Shown here: positions 26,578 to 47,200 of the stretch, one piece after another | Numbering within the stretch: the stretch's first letter is position 1 | How the letters are laid out: the number at the start of each line of letters is the position of its first letter | Assembly (NCBI GenBank): GCA_902785055.1 | Contig: CACZXG010000001.1 | Coordinates: 19,156-83,155 of the forward strand | Direction of reading: 5' to 3' | DNA length: 64,000 nucleotides | Source of the DNA: an uncultured Lachnospiraceae bacterium | Lineage (GTDB): Bacteria; Bacillota; Clostridia; Lachnospirales; Lachnospiraceae | Translations under genes and position numbers: made by a program | Notes under the pieces: model-generated | Told to the model about the DNA's origin: nothing | What the model saw: the letters and a program-made list of their open reading frames with translations, nothing else | Database searches by the model: none

Positions 26578-27828
26578 ATGCTATCTTTTGACGCAAATAA
26601 TTACGATATAAACAGCCAGAAGGACCTGTCCGTCGGTGCGGCGGCCGTCCTGAAAAAAAGAGAAGGCCGAACCATCAAGGCGGGCGGTCTGTGGGTCTAT
26701 GACAATGAGATCGCTCAGTTCCGCGGAGAGTTCGAGGACGGGGATATCATATCCGTAGAAGATTTCGACGGATACTTTATGGGCTACGGTTTCGTCAACC
26801 GCAAGTCTAAGATCACAGTCCGCCTCCTCTCCCGCCGTCGCGAAAATCCTGTCACTCCGGCCTTTCTGACGCAGAGGGTCCGCAGCGCATGGGAGTACAG
26901 AAAGAAGGTCATCGACACCTCCAGCTGCCGTCTTCTCTTCGGAGAAGCGGATTTCCTGCCGGGCCTGACTGTCGACAAATATGAGGATATCCTCGTTGTC
27001 GAGTCCCTGGCTCTCGGCATCGACCGCCTCAAGGGATATCTGCTGGCAGCGCTGGTGAGTGTTCTCGCCGAAGACGGCATTACCGTGCGCGGCATCTACG
27101 AGCGCAGCGACGCCAAGGTCCGCGAGTTGGAGGGCATGCCCAGGGAGAAAGGGTTCCTTACAGCTCCCTTCGATACCAAAATAGAGATCACCGAAAACGG
27201 TGTCCGCTACATCGTGGATGTTGAAAACGGTCAGAAGACCGGTTTCTTCCTGGACCAGAAGGACAATCGGCGCGCGATCCACCGCCTCTGCGGCGGTGCG
27301 AAGGTACTGGACTGCTTCACACACACCGGCTCTTTCGCCTTGAATGCTGCTATTGCAGGCGCCGCGTCCGTCATCGCTGTTGATGCCTCCGATCTCGCCG
27401 TGGAACAGGCGCAGGAAAACGCGCGCCTCAACGGCGTCGAAGACCGGGTCTCATTCCTGTGCCGCGACGTATTTGCACTGCTGCCCGAGCTGATCGAAAA
27501 GGGTGAGGAGTACGATGTGGTCATTTTGGATCCTCCGGCCTTCACCAAGTCCCGCAATTCCATCAAAGCAGCAGCGCGTGGATACCGCGAGATCAATCTC
27601 CGTGGCATGAAACTGGTGAAGAACGGCGGTTATCTCGTCACCTGCTCCTGCTCCCACTTCATGGATCCCGAGCTGTTCAAAAAAACGATCGGTGAGGCCG
27701 CAAGAGACGCGCATCGCCGGCTCCGTCAGGTGGAATTCCGTACCCAGGCGCCCGACCACCCGATCCTGTGGTCGTCGGATGAGTCCTATTATTTAAAGTT
27801 TTACATTTTCCAAGTCGTGGAAGAGTGA
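26578..27828 (+). CDS. Class I rRNA methyltransferase, RlmI-like
   Basis: 416 aa. An N-terminal PUA domain (about 15-95, with AGGLWVYDNEI), an EEHUB-like middle domain and a Rossmann methyltransferase domain: SAM-binding VLDCFTHTGSFALNAA near 243, the catalytic-loop ILDPPAFTKSRN near 316 and CSCSHFM near 355. RlmI methylates C5 of a 23S rRNA cytosine; clostridial homologues are usually annotated this way without direct proof. The gene follows the serine hydrolase in a likely operon and is followed by an unusual noncoding hairpin array. Confidence 0.9.
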   Translation: MLSFDANNYDINSQKDLSVGAAAVLKKREGRTIKAGGLWVYDNEIAQFRGEFEDGDIISVEDFDGYFMGYGFVNRKSKITVRLLSRRRENPVTPAFLTQRVRSAWEYRKKVIDTSSCRLLFGEADFLPGLTVDKYEDILVVESLALGIDRLKGYLLAALVSVLAEDGITVRGIYERSDAKVRELEGMPREKGFLTAPFDTKIEITENGVRYIVDVENGQKTGFFLDQKDNRRAIHRLCGGAKVLDCFTHTGSFALNAAIAGAASVIAVDASDLAVEQAQENARLNGVEDRVSFLCRDVFALLPELIEKGEEYDVVILDPPAFTKSRNSIKAAARGYREINLRGMKLVKNGGYLVTCSCSHFMDPELFKKTIGEAARDAHRRLRQVEFRTQAPDHPILWSSDESYYLKFYIFQVVEE

Positions 27829-27833
27829 AGGCT

Positions 27834-28161
27834 CCACCAAATCTATAGCAGAGGCCTTTCCTAGCGGTATCCTACGGCTTAGTGGTTCCACCAAGTCTAT
27901 GGCAGGGGCCTTTCCTGGTGGATTGGCAGCTCCACTATATTTATAACAGATGTCTTTCTCGGTGGTCTCTTCTGGCTTAGAGGTTCCACCAAGTCTATGG
28001 CAGGGGCCTTTCCTGGTGGAATGAAAACTCCACTAAATCTACGATAGAGGCCTTTCCTAGTGGTGTCTTCCCACTTAGAGACTCCACCAAAACCATGGCA
28101 GAGGCCTTTCCTGGCGAATTGGATACTCCACTAAATCTAGAACAAATCTCTTTCTCGGTGG
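27834..28161. repeat. Array of seven 34-bp hairpin units with alternating 54/44-bp spacing
   Basis: Units start at 27834, 27888, 27932, 27986, 28030, 28084 and 28128, so the period alternates exactly 54, 44, 54, 44, 54, 44 (a 98-bp higher-order repeat). Each unit begins CCACYA, has a conserved core near GGCCTTTCCT and ends near TGGTGG, able to fold with a 6-bp stem. The unit at 28030 has CCACTA with TAGTGG where those at 27888 and 27986 have CCACCA with TGGTGG, a compensatory change supporting RNA or cruciform pairing. A degenerate eighth unit start lies at 28182. The 44- and 98-bp steps are not multiples of three, so this is not coding. Function unknown. Confidence 0.9.
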
Positions 28162-28189
28162 TGTCTATCGGTTTAAACACTCCTACAAA

Positions 28190-28258
28190 AAGGGGCGTGT
28201 CGCATAAGCGCAGGATTATCAAAATTGATCCTTAGCCCTTATTGCGACAGCCCCTTAA
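28190..28258. terminator. Long imperfect hairpin, bidirectional terminator between the rlmI-like and metallo-hydrolase genes
   Basis: AAGGGGC/GCCCCTT, TGTCGCA/TGCGACA, TAAG/CTTA and AGGAT/ATCCT pair in order to make a stem of roughly 28 bp, with A residues before and T-rich sequence after. It ends the array and separates converging genes. Its left arm is repeated near 61421. Confidence 0.75.
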
Positions 28259-28283
28259 TTTATTGGCTACATTTATCAGTTTC

Positions 28284-29432
28284 TTACTTATACACCGCAG
28301 GAAGAAGTCCCCTCTTCCCGGCTGCGGCAGCTCCCGCCGCCCGCATCTTTTCCGTATCCTTAGGCTCCTGACGGTTGTTGAACTGCTGATACGTCATGGA
28401 AAGTCCGATCCCGCCTTCTCCCCTGTAGAGCACGATCTTCGGAGTCCGGTTTCTCTGTGCCCGCACTGTGATCACGCCGTCCCTTGCCTTGAATGTGACG
28501 TTTCCGTTATATCTGGAACTGTACACGTTGGCAAACTTCATCAGATTCCTCACGGGAGTCTCCACCCAGCCGTTTGCGAAGCTGTCGGGAGCGTCGTCCG
28601 TACTGTTAAAGAATCCGAAAGACGGGTTCACTGCCTTCATAAATTCATAGCTGTTGCCGGTATCTCCGCCGTGATGGCTCATCTTGTACAGATCCGCCGA
28701 GACATCGATTCCCTCCTCGAGAATCTTCTTTTCAACCTCTGCCCCAGTGTCGCCGCAGGTCAGATACCTGATCCCGCCGCCCGTGATCCTCGCCACAAGG
28801 GAATTGTTGTTGAGATACTCGCGGTCGTGGTCGTCGCTCTCGTAGGTGGTGCCGTACAGGATCTCCACCTTCGCGTCTCCGATCCGGAAGCTGTCCCCCG
28901 GATGAAGCACGATGAGCGGGATCCCTTTCTCCATTGCCAGCTCCCTGATCGCTATATCCATACTGTGGAACCACCCGAGCAGGTCGGCGTAGTCGTTGTC
29001 CGTCGCCCAGAGATACGCATCATCCGGCATATAGACCGCTTTAACCTTGAAGCGGTCGTCCCACATGATATTTCTCATATTGCCGAAATGATCCGCGTGA
29101 AAATGGGAGAGATAGAGGGAAAACTCCGTATACCCGTTGTCCAGCAGGTACTCCTTGAGAGTGTCTTCGCAGTCAGGCATGAAGGTGTCCATAAGCATGC
29201 ACTCTCCCTTGCTCTCGATCATCGTGCCGTCTCCCCAGCCTTCCCAGCCGAAGTCGATGGCAGTGATCTTGAGGGGGATAGAGGGGTCCGGCTCTGCGGA
29301 TTGCTGCGCCGCCGGGGTCTGCTGCACAGCGTTACCGCTCTCTGACGCCCGAACCGGCCTGACCGCCGCCGCGGCAAAAGCGATTGCGAGCAAAAGTGAG
29401 CCGATCCGAATCCTGGTTGTTACTCTTCTCAT
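28284..29432 (-). CDS. Exported metallo-beta-lactamase-fold hydrolase (ComEC-C-like)
   Basis: 382 aa with an N-terminal signal peptide (hydrophobic 9-25, processing near ARAS-type residues 28-31). The metal-binding motif SHFHADHFG is at 109-117, followed by TCGDTG and KMSHHGGDTG ligands, as in MBL-fold proteins related to the C-terminal domain of ComEC. The substrate is unknown; nuclease or phosphodiesterase activity outside the membrane is plausible. Its ATG overlaps the stop of the upstream CmpB-family gene by four bases (ATGA), so the two are translationally coupled and may act together. Confidence 0.85.
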   Translation of the reverse strand: MRRVTTRIRIGSLLLAIAFAAAAVRPVRASESGNAVQQTPAAQQSAEPDPSIPLKITAIDFGWEGWGDGTMIESKGECMLMDTFMPDCEDTLKEYLLDNGYTEFSLYLSHFHADHFGNMRNIMWDDRFKVKAVYMPDDAYLWATDNDYADLLGWFHSMDIAIRELAMEKGIPLIVLHPGDSFRIGDAKVEILYGTTYESDDHDREYLNNNSLVARITGGGIRYLTCGDTGAEVEKKILEEGIDVSADLYKMSHHGGDTGNSYEFMKAVNPSFGFFNSTDDAPDSFANGWVETPVRNLMKFANVYSSRYNGNVTFKARDGVITVRAQRNRTPKIVLYRGEGGIGLSMTYQQFNNRQEPKDTEKMRAAGAAAAGKRGLLPAVYK

Positions 29433-30580
29433 TCTATAGTCTCCCCTTCTTCCGCGTCTTTCTTTAGTTTATCAAGCAGCTCCCTGTATTTTCTGTGCCG
29501 CATCTGCGGAAAAGCTCTGAGGAGTCTTCCTGCGCCAAAATAGCGCGTCCCCCGAACCATCCTCGACAGCGCAGCTTTCTTGCGGTTGTACTGATTTTTG
29601 AGGCTCTCCAGTCCTTTCTCCCCGGAACTCTGTACGGCGCTTATACCGTCCATTGCCCCGTTCTTCACGGCGCTCAGGCTGTCAACTGCCCCCTCTTTCA
29701 CAGCACTCAGACCATCAACCGCCCCGGCTTTTACCGCACTCAGGCTATCAACCGCCCCGGCCTTTACCGCGCTCAGGCTGTCGACTGCTCCCGTCGCGAC
29801 AGCGCTCAGACTATCGACTGCCTCGGCCTTTACCGCGCTCAAACTGTCGACTGCCCCGGCCTTTACCGCGCTCAGACTGTCGATCGCCTCAGCCTTCGCA
29901 AGCGCTGCCTGGACCTTGGCCTCTCCTATGTACTGGGCTGTTCCCAGCGCGCTCCGGCCGATCCCGTCGCTCAGCGTGTTGCTGACGACGCGCATTCTCT
30001 TCTGCATCTCATCCAGTTCCGCGAGTCGCTTGTTGAGGCCGACCATGATCATGACCGAGAGCATGGTATCTGAGGCATAGACTATATACAGGAAGTACAT
30101 CAGCGGCCATCCCACAGTCTCCGGCATGATCCTGTCGAACGTCGCCGCGATCAGGGGATGCAGCACCTCCACTACGAGCACGATGCCGATCCCCCAGAGC
30201 AGACTGAACTGCAGGCAGATGTAACCGTGAAAATTGAAGGGTTTATCGGAATAATCCCACCAGCTGGCGTGGAACAGTCTGTCCAGCGCCCAGCCTCCAA
30301 ACAGCTCGATCATGGTCGTAAGCGCCATGCCGCACAGAAATATCAGAAGCAGATTTGTGTAAGAAGAGCCGGTGCCAAAACGCGAAAGGCCGGTATTGAT
30401 CGTCCCGAAAACGGCGAGAATGCCAAATCCGTAGATCGGGCACACCGGTCCGTTTAGAAATCCTCTGTTAACGACCCTTCCTTTACAGACGGCCGCATAT
30501 GCAACCTCCGTGCACCATCCCAAAAAAGAATATATAAGAAAATATTGAAATATGTGGTAATAACTAATTCCTGCTATCAC
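29429..30580 (-). CDS. CmpB-family membrane protein with eight 11-residue repeats
   Basis: 383 aa. The N-terminal half has about five membrane segments with the family motif NRGFLNGPVCPIYGFG (often annotated ABC_trans_CmpB or putative ABC transporter type IV). The cytoplasmic tail contains eight tandem 11-residue units (consensus AVDSLSAVKAG) encoded by 29624-29887, then a basic end. I place the start at GTG 30580 because GGAGG lies about six bases upstream; an in-frame TTG at 30646 lacks a ribosome site. The molecular function of this family is not established. A paralogue lacking the repeats is encoded at 59710-60630. Confidence 0.8.
   Translation of the reverse strand: MIAGISYYHIFQYFLIYSFLGWCTEVAYAAVCKGRVVNRGFLNGPVCPIYGFGILAVFGTINTGLSRFGTGSSYTNLLLIFLCGMALTTMIELFGGWALDRLFHASWWDYSDKPFNFHGYICLQFSLLWGIGIVLVVEVLHPLIAATFDRIMPETVGWPLMYFLYIVYASDTMLSVMIMVGLNKRLAELDEMQKRMRVVSNTLSDGIGRSALGTAQYIGEAKVQAALAKAEAIDSLSAVKAGAVDSLSAVKAEAVDSLSAVATGAVDSLSAVKAGAVDSLSAVKAGAVDGLSAVKEGAVDSLSAVKNGAMDGISAVQSSGEKGLESLKNQYNRKKAALSRMVRGTRYFGAGRLLRAFPQMRHRKYRELLDKLKKDAEEGETIE
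29624..29887 (-). repeat. Eight 33-bp tandem repeats encoding hendecads
   Basis: Each unit encodes an 11-residue block, from AIDSLSAVKAG to AMDGISAVQSS. Copies differ by few bases, which indicates tandem duplication. The 11-residue period predicts an amphipathic or right-handed coiled-coil helix. Confidence 0.9.
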
Positions 30581-30656
30581 TGTAACTCCTCCCGTGTCCT
30601 TATTACCCCACAAACAATTTACCACATCTTTCACATTTTCTGCCAATAATTATCCA

Positions 30657-44210: not shown

Positions 44211-47200
44211 TCAGTTGACGGAGATCGTTTCCGTATAGCCCGGAATCCAGCGCCCGTCGCTTCCTACATAATACTTGTGATTATCAACCCACTGGTTTAT
44301 AGCCATCACTCCGCTTTCTGTCATGTAGTAGTTGCCGATCCACTTGCTGCAGGCTGCCGCACCGCCGGCTTCAAAGTAGTACCAGTCATCACCGGCCTTC
44401 TGCCATCCCGTCTGCATCACTCCGCCTGCAGCGAAGTAAAACTTGTTCTGTCCGATCTGCTGCAGTCCGGTCAGCATCCTGCCTTCATTGTCAAAGTAAT
44501 ACCACTTATCACTGATCTTCTGCCAGCCTTTGACCATCGCTCCGCCGCCGGCAAAGTAATACCAGTCTCCATCAATCTTCTGCCAGCCGGTCTGCATCGC
44601 TCCGCCTGCTGCGAAGTAATACTTGTTCTGTCCGATCTGCTGCAGTCCGGTCTGCATCCATCCTTCATTGCCGAAGTAATACCACTTATCACCGATCTTC
44701 TGCCAGTCTTTGGCCATCGCTCCGCTGCCGGCAAAGTAATACCAGTCTCCATCAATCTTCTGCCAGCCGGTCTGCATCGCTCCGCTTGCTGCGAAGTAAT
44801 ACTCCTTGTTGTTGATCTCCTGAAATCCGGTAAGCATCCAGCCTTCATTGTCGAAGTAATACCACTTATCACCGATCTTCTGCCAGTCTTTGACCATCGC
44901 TCCGCCGCCGCTAAAGTAATACCAGTCTCCGTCGATCTTCTTCCAGCCCGTCTGCATCACTCCGTTCTCATCGAAGTAGTAACGCGTGCCGCTAATGTCT
45001 TGCCAGCCGGTAAGCATCTTGCCGCTGTCATCGAAGTAGTACCACTTTCCGCCGATCTTCTGCCAGCTCGTCACTCTGTAGCCGGAAGCGTTGAAATAAT
45101 AGGTATCGCCGAAAATGGTCTCAAAGCCGTTTTTGGGATAAGTGCCGTCCGGCCACCGATACCAATAGCCGCTGCTGTTATGCTGCCAGCTGCCGTGCGA
45201 GCGAGGATCGATGATCTCAATATTCACAGGTTTGCCGGTTCTGTAACTATAGCTGTCATCTTCGACCTGCAGGACAATTCCGAAGCTTCCGGGCTGCGCC
45301 GACGTATCAACAGACAGTATTCCATAACCGCCCCAGGACTCTTCTTTAAGGCTCACACCCTCGGTCTCATCGAGGATCCTGTCAATGAAGAATTCATTGG
45401 CTGTCAGCGTCACGCCTTCCGGGTGACGCATGGAGTATAACTTAAACTGCGCGCCAAGCCCCTTATAGATCTCCTGCGCCGTATAATCTTTTCCGGGTAT
45501 CACTTCAAAGACCGCGCCTTCCGGCACTTCTATTTCCACAAAGAATGCGCTGACCTCGATCACGCCATCCCGCCATTGTCCGTCTACCTCATTGCCATCT
45601 TTGTCATAAATAGAAATAAGGAAACTATAATCTGTGGTTCCGGTCTTAAGCGGTGTGATCGTGCCTGTGTTTTTATCGATATCAACCACGTCTCTGTTGT
45701 AGTGCTCATAGCGGATCTCATAGTGATAGCCTTCTTCATCCGGCAGAACGGATTCTGTCGGCAGTTCACCGGCTTCAAAGAAGACGCGGGTTACCTCCGC
45801 CTGCAGCTGCTCGGTCTCACCCATAAGCATCTTGATATGTTCCGCGTTCTCTCCGCCGGAAGTCATCAGTTCCGCCCAAAAGACGGTATCTACGATCTCG
45901 ATCTCTACCGTTAACGGGCTGTATCCCTGAGGTCCGCCGGTAAAGGTGACCGTAACGGGAATCGCATGATCTGCCAGCTGAAGGGACTGAATCGTCCAGC
46001 GTGTCCCGCTGCGTTCCGCGGAAAGATACTGCTGATCCTCTGCTCCAACGGATATATCTGTGATCACGATATCATAAAATGTTCCGGTCTCGTAATAAGC
46101 GTTCACCCCTGTATCGTTGAGAGAATCCTCTACATAGAGCTGTACTTCGCCGTCGTCAAAGAACATGTCTTTTCCCAAAGGAATAGTGCTGCCAAGACCG
46201 ACAATTTCAACGAAGGGCTTTACCAGCGCGACCTGGAAGATCTCATCACAGATTATGACGTCATTGAGCTCGGAGTGAATCCTTAAGAATACTCTCGGAA
46301 CTTCGCCTTCCTCAATCGCTGCCGCAAGATGCTCCCTCAGATCTTTAAGCGCAGTGCCCTGGGCGTGAAGGCCGTTCTGTTCATCGAACACACCTGCTGC
46401 TGCCGGGTCATACTGCGGGATCGGCGTCATTTCCGCGTTCTCCCTGTCCCAAATGCCGATTTCCACCGTTGTCTCAACTGCGTATCCCTGATTTTGCAGC
46501 GCGTCCAGCTTCTCGCGGTCCGGCCTGATCGAAACCTCTTCATCATTGTAGTACCATGTGAAGTGGTCGTCTCCGCGGTCATTGTTCGCGATAAAGCCTT
46601 TACTATACTCCTGCTCGTAAATCTTATAGTCTCTCCAGGCTTCCTGGCGATTATCTTCCTCATCCTCCCATTCGGCCCTGATAAAGAGATTAACGTCCCA
46701 GGAAACCGTTTTTCTTATTGTAAAAGGAGCATCCTGTGCCGTGACCCGGTCGCCGGGGTGTACTTCCTCGCCGTTTGCTTTTTCGACATAGAAGTGTCCG
46801 GGATCCCACTCTCCGCTTCCGGCGTGCCACTCCATTGTATAGACGACGTCTTCCGGATTTCCTATAGGTGACGGCTCCATACCCGTCTTAGTGCGCACGA
46901 TTCCCGGAACAAAGGTGATCTCGCCTCCGGGAGGAAATTCCTCATTCCAGTCAAGTTCCGTCTCCTGGTCTTCCTCATAGAGTTCCAGTGCGAAAGTCAT
47001 AGGATCGACAAAGATCGTCCTGTCTGCATATGCGTAGGAATCCCCGGTCTCGGGATCATACAGTTCCGCTGACACCCAAATATCGATAGCACCGTCAAAA
47101 TTCTCTGCGGTAATTGTAATCGACCTGTCCTGAGGATTCTCTGTGTAATCCCAGAGTTCTCCGCGGGCAGATGCCGCGTCGAAGTCCCAATCGTACTCCC

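Follow-up and report, generated by a model that had tools for sequence, protein, structure and literature searches.

Dispersed arrays of inverted half-site dyads in a Lachnospiraceae subclade and their resemblance to REP/BIME repeats

Iterons, parS-like clusters and res sub-sites are built of repeated dyads that lie at a regular distance and carry conserved half-sites. The mycobacterial MIRU are tandem intergenic units of about 53 bp whose copy number varies. REP elements, which include the GTAG and CGTC super-families, are described as lineage-specific intergenic palindromes of 20-40 bp that lie between convergent or co-directional genes (PMC3733652, PMC8266576). Here, we describe a regular array of short dyads in a window of 64,000 nucleotides, by which we mean the whole stretch of DNA analysed, from an uncultured Lachnospiraceae bacterium (genome G000). 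A literature search that covered few subscription papers returned, in the text available, no description of such arrays in Lachnospiraceae. Judging from sequence, we give an even chance to a reading in which the arrays would be a dispersed non-coding repeat of the REP/BIME type, with half-sites read by a putative DNA-binding protein and copy number changing by tandem duplication.

Architecture of the window array and its units

The array, at 27834-28161, lies between two convergent genes. The stop codon of an rlmI-like gene, at 27828, ends 6 bp before the first unit, and the 3' end of the opposing gene lies at 28284. The features of this region are listed below, with (.) for those given without a strand.

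26578..27828 (+), rlmI-like methyltransferase gene, matching PUA_3 and Methyltrans_SAM
27834..27867 (.), unit 1, arms CCACCA/TAGCGG, mismatched
27888..27921 (.), unit 2, arms CCACCA/TGGTGG
27932..27965 (.), unit 3, arms CCACTA/CGGTGG, CTTTCTCGGTGG variant
27986..28019 (.), unit 4, same sequence as unit 2
28030..28063 (.), unit 5, arms CCACTA/TAGTGG
28084..28117 (.), unit 6, arms CCACCA/TGGCGA
28128..28161 (.), unit 7, CTTTCTCGGTGG variant
28182..28187 (.), degenerate left half-site CCTACA, +54 from unit 7, seen by eye
28190..28256 (.), long imperfect palindrome AAGGGGC..GCCCCTT, 3' of the array, seen by eye
28284..29432 (-), convergent gene of 382 aa, without a Pfam match

An earlier note, made from the letters of this DNA, had placed seven 34-bp units at alternating distances, and the starts are exactly as it gave them, with spacings of 54, 44, 54, 44, 54 and 44 bp, linkers of 20 and 10 bp, and the CTTTCTCGGTGG variant common to units 3 and 7. 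Tandem Repeats Finder gives the array a score of 369, with a period of 98 and 3.4 copies. The extent drawn in that note holds for the seven units, but the true edge is slightly wider and takes in the degenerate half-site at 28182-28187; in genome G046 (L011/L156) CCAACA occupies, by eye, the place of this trailing CCTACA. The array is noncoding, as had been proposed, in that no frame is open throughout (the longest runs to 77/113 codons), and it is likewise no CRISPR, since its units vary and its linkers are alike between copies. The palindrome at 28190-28256 is perhaps a terminator of the flanking genes, separate from the dyad repeat; it is absent from the output of a terminator scan, whose sole match lies at 27916-27937, inside the array, the number of matches being about equal to that in shuffled sequence.

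The product of the convergent gene resembles by eye, from a motif, a metallo-beta-lactamase-fold protein. Two other tandem repeats lie in the window. One, of 33/99 bp at 29633-29883, is inside a CmpB-type membrane protein gene (29429-30646, minus strand) and encodes an 11-residue AVDSLSAVKAG-like repeat; the other, of 60/180 bp at 44358-45067, has a reverse complement that resembles by eye a GWQKIGDNWYYF cell-wall-binding repeat.

Over 65 units from ten arrays, in a scan that permitted 31-35 bp, unit length is 33 bp in 41, 34 bp in 22 and 32 bp in 2. The left arm and the reversed right arm share one consensus, about GGYTCCACYARGAAT, and stand 27-28 bp apart; the flanks of both follow a single symmetric consensus, GG[CT]T. 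Successive half-sites along an array point in opposite directions, at intervals of 27-28 and mostly 25-26 bp. Some arrays (G007 and contig C33 of G000) also contain half-sites of a second class, TCCGACGAAA, among those of the first. Between arrays, identity is 0.76 in the half-sites, a value partly built in by the picking of units by motif, 0.35 in the loop and 0.38 beside the unit. The loop core (GGCCTTTCCT type) that had been called conserved is common to the window units and the G046 unit, but it varies between arrays.

This anatomy suggests a mechanism. The element would be a 33-34 bp dyad of two inverted half-sites of about 10-15 bp (GGYTCCACYARGAAT, or TCCGACGAAA in some arrays) about 27-28 bp apart, and each dyad would be a double-stranded DNA site for a putative dimeric, sequence-specific DNA-binding protein, so that an array would form a ladder of such sites at gene ends. 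Tandem duplication would raise the number of copies locally, and copies would also spread from one intergenic region to another. As a guess, occupancy by the putative protein could act as a roadblock or as insulation between convergent genes, or could organise supercoils or the nucleoid. No DNA-binding protein gene was noted that recurs beside the arrays. Helical phasing of the sites was considered and set aside: steps of 10 bp (44/54 in the window, linkers of 4/14 in G007) hint at it, but not all linkers conform, those of G007 measuring 4, 12, 14, 19, 20, 23 and 24 bp and the whole set including 4/14, 10/20, 29-31 and 41 bp but also 12, 19, 23, 24 and 27 bp. The linkers are not strictly helical, and this counts against a ladder of binding sites.

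Distribution of the repeat family

A DNA search with the whole array matched, among 99 genomes including its own, the own genome only, and models of the unit were therefore needed. Model R1 was built from 13 units (seven from the window, five from L002 and one from the G046 locus L011), R2 from 34 units of G025, and R3 from 28 units of the G007/C33 type, in which TCCGACGAAA half-sites are mixed with the first class. Arrays lie on four contigs of G000, namely C1 (the window), C48 (L002), C33 (L196) and C56 (L211), and also in G025, G007 and G046 of the same subclade. The C48 array, found by a DNA search of the own genome, has seven dyads at 54 bp; its orientation, judged by the asymmetric interior, is opposite to that of the window array, and a different palindrome (GACCTCTGGGGT..ACCCCAGAGGTC) lies on both sides of it. 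R1 recovers 14 strong units in G000, all on C1 and C48, with three more matches at E 0.4-0.7, and R3 adds 9 other unit places. G025 is array-rich, with 52 distinct unit places on 9 contigs, found by R1 and then R2, at a spacing of mostly 52-54 bp.

In wider searches R2, at E<=0.01, matched 5 of 62 genus genomes and brought G007 and contig C33 to light; R3 matched 3 of 295 genomes, the own included: G000 (where it also found C56), G007 and G046. A pattern of two tandem dyads matched 2 of the 62 genus genomes (G000 and G025), and a slightly different dyad pattern matched a single one of 397 family genomes, the own, in a sample to which G025 did not belong. One isolated unit occurs in G036 and a single similar palindrome in G054. 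Weak R1 matches (E 0.0018 to 0.1) fell in G055, G058, G059, G011, G053 and G056, on C239 of G007 and on C36 of G046; the two that were read by eye, L141 (C36 of G046) and L158 (G055), resemble coding sequence and were rejected, and L159 (G058) was scanned by motif alone.

The four array-bearing genomes lie within a 12-genome subclade defined by RlmI identity of at least 90%, a comparison in which G036 gave no RlmI match. In the other 8 of the 12 the models found no array, G054 having its single palindrome and G055 its weak coding-like match. Most genus genomes are incomplete (completeness is 87% for G000, 67% for G025 and 71% for G007, with arrays at contig ends), stricter filters applied in searches over more than 40 genomes, and R1-R3, built from the arrays themselves, are blind to other half-sites, so absence elsewhere carries little weight. 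Distant blastn of phages and plasmids matched nothing, and the viral pattern CTWTGGCAGGGGCCTTTCCTGG gave 0 matches. A viral pattern of 18 fixed bases returned 30 stretches with one match each, and a looser motif chains two units in one of the 30 (L256).

Arrays stand mostly at gene 3' ends. At 11 array loci the flanking genes, in orientations assigned by eye from ORF lists of mostly unverified gene calls, are convergent in 4, co-directional in 6 and divergent in 1. A PD-(D/E)XK nuclease-like family, recognised by eye, is encoded at L196 632-1558 and L216 1016-2092, both on the minus strand, and its genes end a few bases from an array in G000 (C33; 308 aa) and in G007 (C26). The family has no Pfam or NCBIfam match and no significant PDB match. 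It was rejected as a partner of the arrays: it is present in 33 of 62 genus genomes and at 8 places in G000, and with so widespread a family the shared descent of one locus suffices to explain the adjacency. A composite of about 200 bp, with several half-sites and a central TTTCGTACGAA palindrome, lies at about 2385-2565 of L196 and about 2620-2810 of L211; it is found on two G000 contigs and in G046, as a dispersed miniature element would be.

Arm pairing, reading frames and half-site change

The arms of a unit can pair, and the units might accordingly form an array of structured RNA hairpins, in a 3' UTR or a non-coding RNA, that is processed or bound by protein. We judge this very unlikely. 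A compensatory change had been claimed for the arms, on the strength of a CCACTA/TAGTGG copy among CCACCA/TGGTGG ones. Only 3 of the 7 window units (27888, 27986 and 28030) have fully paired 6-bp arms, those at 27834, 27932, 28084 and 28128 being mismatched; CCACTA stands opposite TAGTGG once and CGGTGG twice, CCACCA opposite TAGCGG once and TGGCGA once. The lone CCACTA/TAGTGG unit gives no evidence for a helix. Arms whose pairing is kept should match their own partner better than the arms of other units, and they do not: across 56 distinct units from ten arrays, matches within units number 399 against 398.2 +- 5.6 after shuffling within arrays (5,000 shuffles, p 0.48). G025 behaves alike, with 9.42 of 14 positions paired within units, 9.34 with neighbouring units and 9.41 with other units, and its 34 units are 76.5% paired against 75.6 when shuffled, while 94 of 500 shuffles reach their covariation score. 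The claim of a compensatory change thus fails. A set of 13 units, A1, taken from both G000 arrays and, for one unit, from G046, gives a borderline result in two of five covariation measures, which favours the RNA: 29 of 500 shuffles reach the covariation score, and 8 cells are changed on both sides against 4.3 expected (39 of 500), with the percentage paired not raised (76.9 against 77.1).

The folds of these arrays speak to the same question. The window array has a z of -2.3 on the minus strand but only -1.0 on the plus strand, and the fold of the L101 array is far stronger than that of shuffled sequence (z -7.5), as expected for any array of palindromes. Arm mismatches on the minus strand of the window comprise 15 G-T and 2 A-C, as an RNA hairpin would show, and those on the plus strand of L002, which has the same relative orientation, 6 G-T and 1 A-C. 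This bias in G000 may keep an RNA from the window minus strand alive; by eye it mostly traces to positions common to copies, and it may represent few events. The G025 arms, on the other hand, divide 32 to 33 with no strand bias, and covariation was found neither over the 56 units nor over the 34 of G025. Rfam gave no match to the window array even at E<=1, and no promoter-like site was found at 27700-28400. Moreover, arms of two classes (TCCGACGAAA and TTGGTGG) face each other within one unit in the arrays of G007 and C33. A structured RNA array or a processed tandem non-coding RNA, both offered in the earlier note, thus finds little support. A likeness of TGGTGGAACCGC to a T-box, seen by eye, was dropped, Rfam being negative for the window. 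The option that fits best among those put forward is a multi-site protein-binding array, with paired half-sites at a fixed distance, no covariation beyond shuffles and slower change in the half-sites.

A remnant of an 18-residue coding repeat is a barely credible source of the array. One frame of the L002 array stays open for 122/122 codons; however, the only near-fully open arrays among 19 stretches are this one, L194 (94/95) and L192 (51/53), a 54-bp period by itself keeps an open frame open, and periods of 53, 98 and 86 bp do not divide by three. A contig of the IMG/VR viral collection (L256/L262) does carry, at about 1420-1650 of L256, a 54-bp coding repeat of 18 residues (TTKLTINTLSGGDVRSYD) with CCACCA and TGGTGG at the same spacing, but it came from a search for that very spacing, and we therefore take it as chance.

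Half-site change can be followed at one comparable array. The C56 array of G000, which lies between sirohaem-synthase-like and BioY-family genes, has its orthologue on C139 of G046, where the flanks read alike. Half-sites differ at 2 of 122 positions and other positions at 21 of 189 (p=0.0014), in a test that comprises one orthologous pair and 23 substitutions, the motifs that mark half-sites having been picked once the sequences had been seen. The paralogous C56 and C33 arrays differ at 10 of 122 half-site positions and 44 of 189 others (p=0.0006), and C33 against the G046 array shows the same trend (12/122 and 42/189). Four ways of marking the half-sites (from the first, the second, either or both sequences) leave the species comparison unchanged; the C33 comparisons under other markings give 7/103 against 47/208 and 8/103 against 46/208, and the trend is kept.

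Copy number, by contrast, turns over. The rlmI locus holds seven units in G000 and one unit with a trailing half-site in G046, and R1, R2 and R3 find no unit there in G033, G003, G013, G054, G045, G055, G024 or G025; the RlmI proteins of G033, G003 and G013 are 97-98% identical, yet their loci are unit-free. This comparison leaves out G022 and G007, whose contigs end within or next to rlmI. L150 repeats a block of units at a distance of exactly 315 bp, and local growth by tandem duplication is visible there.

A neutral, decaying tandem repeat without function would also vary in number, as the rlmI locus does (7, 1 and 0 copies), would be missing from most of the genus, as the arrays are in our searches, and might lie at contig ends like repeats that break assembly, as several G025 arrays do. 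We nevertheless hold it to be improbable: the half-sites at the C56 array change at a rate several times below that of the other positions, both between species and between paralogues, and the same half-sites recur at a fixed distance in 4 genomes. That copies come and go as half-sites are kept at the one comparable array fits selected binding sites, unlike simple decay.

A bolder version of the binding-site reading seems to us doubtful but possible. The arrays would be a fast-evolving, selected ladder of binding dyads for a putative chromosomal protein of one Lachnospiraceae subclade, with half-sites kept and with copy number, linkers and even the four central bases of the half-site class (ACCA, GACG) turning over between species; site and protein would co-evolve as a system for marking the ends of genes, with no dedicated transposase. 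If the constraint on half-sites holds at more loci, it would point to a sequence-specific architecture layer between genes of these gut and rumen Lachnospiraceae, and the rapid turnover would, if real, let protein and sites be watched changing together.

Relation to REP elements and other dyad arrays

The units might be REP/BIME elements that a RAYT (Y1) transposase mobilises as single-stranded hairpins, a reading that we regard as unlikely. Their size, palindromy, clustering and intergenic and 3'-end placement match those of described REPs (PMC3733652). Long RAYT-like Y1 proteins, judged so by length and score (open frames roughly 240-330 aa long, E about 1e-11 to 1e-16), are present in all 4 unit-bearing genomes searched (G000, G025, G046 and G036) and in 1 of 10 others, G054, the bearer of the single similar palindrome; the array-rich G007 was left out of this search, and in incomplete genomes further Y1 genes may be missing. 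The co-occurrence may reflect the subclade alone. Against mobilisation, R1, R2 and R3 detect no unit (E<=0.1) at any of 14 loci around Y1 genes, the Y1 flanks mostly carrying other palindromes (ACCCCAGAGGTC type and others) by eye, and the element is symmetric and lacks any GTAG or CGTC tag beyond its stem.

In this genus, palindromes of the GACCTCTGGGGT/ACCCCAGAGGTC type or others flank many of the RAYT-like Y1 genes. Palindromes of these kinds lie at about 1221-1276 and 1722-1766 of L002, in L170-L183, at about 2965-3020 of L211 and at about 2440-2465 of L213; by exact match the GACCTCTGGGGT/ACCCCAGAGGTC type has no copy in the window. Like the dyads, they are intergenic in the same genomes, and they adjoin several dyad arrays (that of C48 is flanked), but they differ in sequence, and they flank Y1 genes whereas the CCACCA units do not.

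Compared with iterons, parS-like clusters and res sub-sites, the arrays are alike in their regularly spaced dyads, a likeness of description only, but they differ in being many scattered intergenic copies, next to which we noticed no gene for replication, partition or a recombinase. Mycobacterial MIRU are similar in period, intergenic position and variable copy number, again by description. The closest comparison is with REP/BIME repeats. The earlier note had held the array to be no simple REP, which is right in that it lacks the tag and a flanking transposase but not in that it behaves like a REP/BIME repeat. With described families (PMC3733652, PMC8266576, PMC6006769) it shares palindrome size, intergenic placement, dimers and clusters, and restriction to a lineage. 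The dyads of 33-34 bp are within REP size and have many intergenic copies. In a BIME two palindromes in inverse orientation are repeated in tandem; the arrays here are regular and tandem, with a near-symmetric unit that makes orientation hard to assign. The units differ in being symmetric and tandem at a fixed period. No unpaired GTAG or CGTC tag was found at a unit end, CGTC occurring inside the second-class arm, and no REPtron, in which the element flanks a RAYT gene, was found at the 14 Y1 loci of these incomplete genomes; with both tag and transposase wanting, we do not file the element as a REP of a known super-family. We place the arrays with the REP-like kind, as a variant outside the known super-families, and they would, if this reading is true, separate REP-like placement from mobilisation by RAYT.
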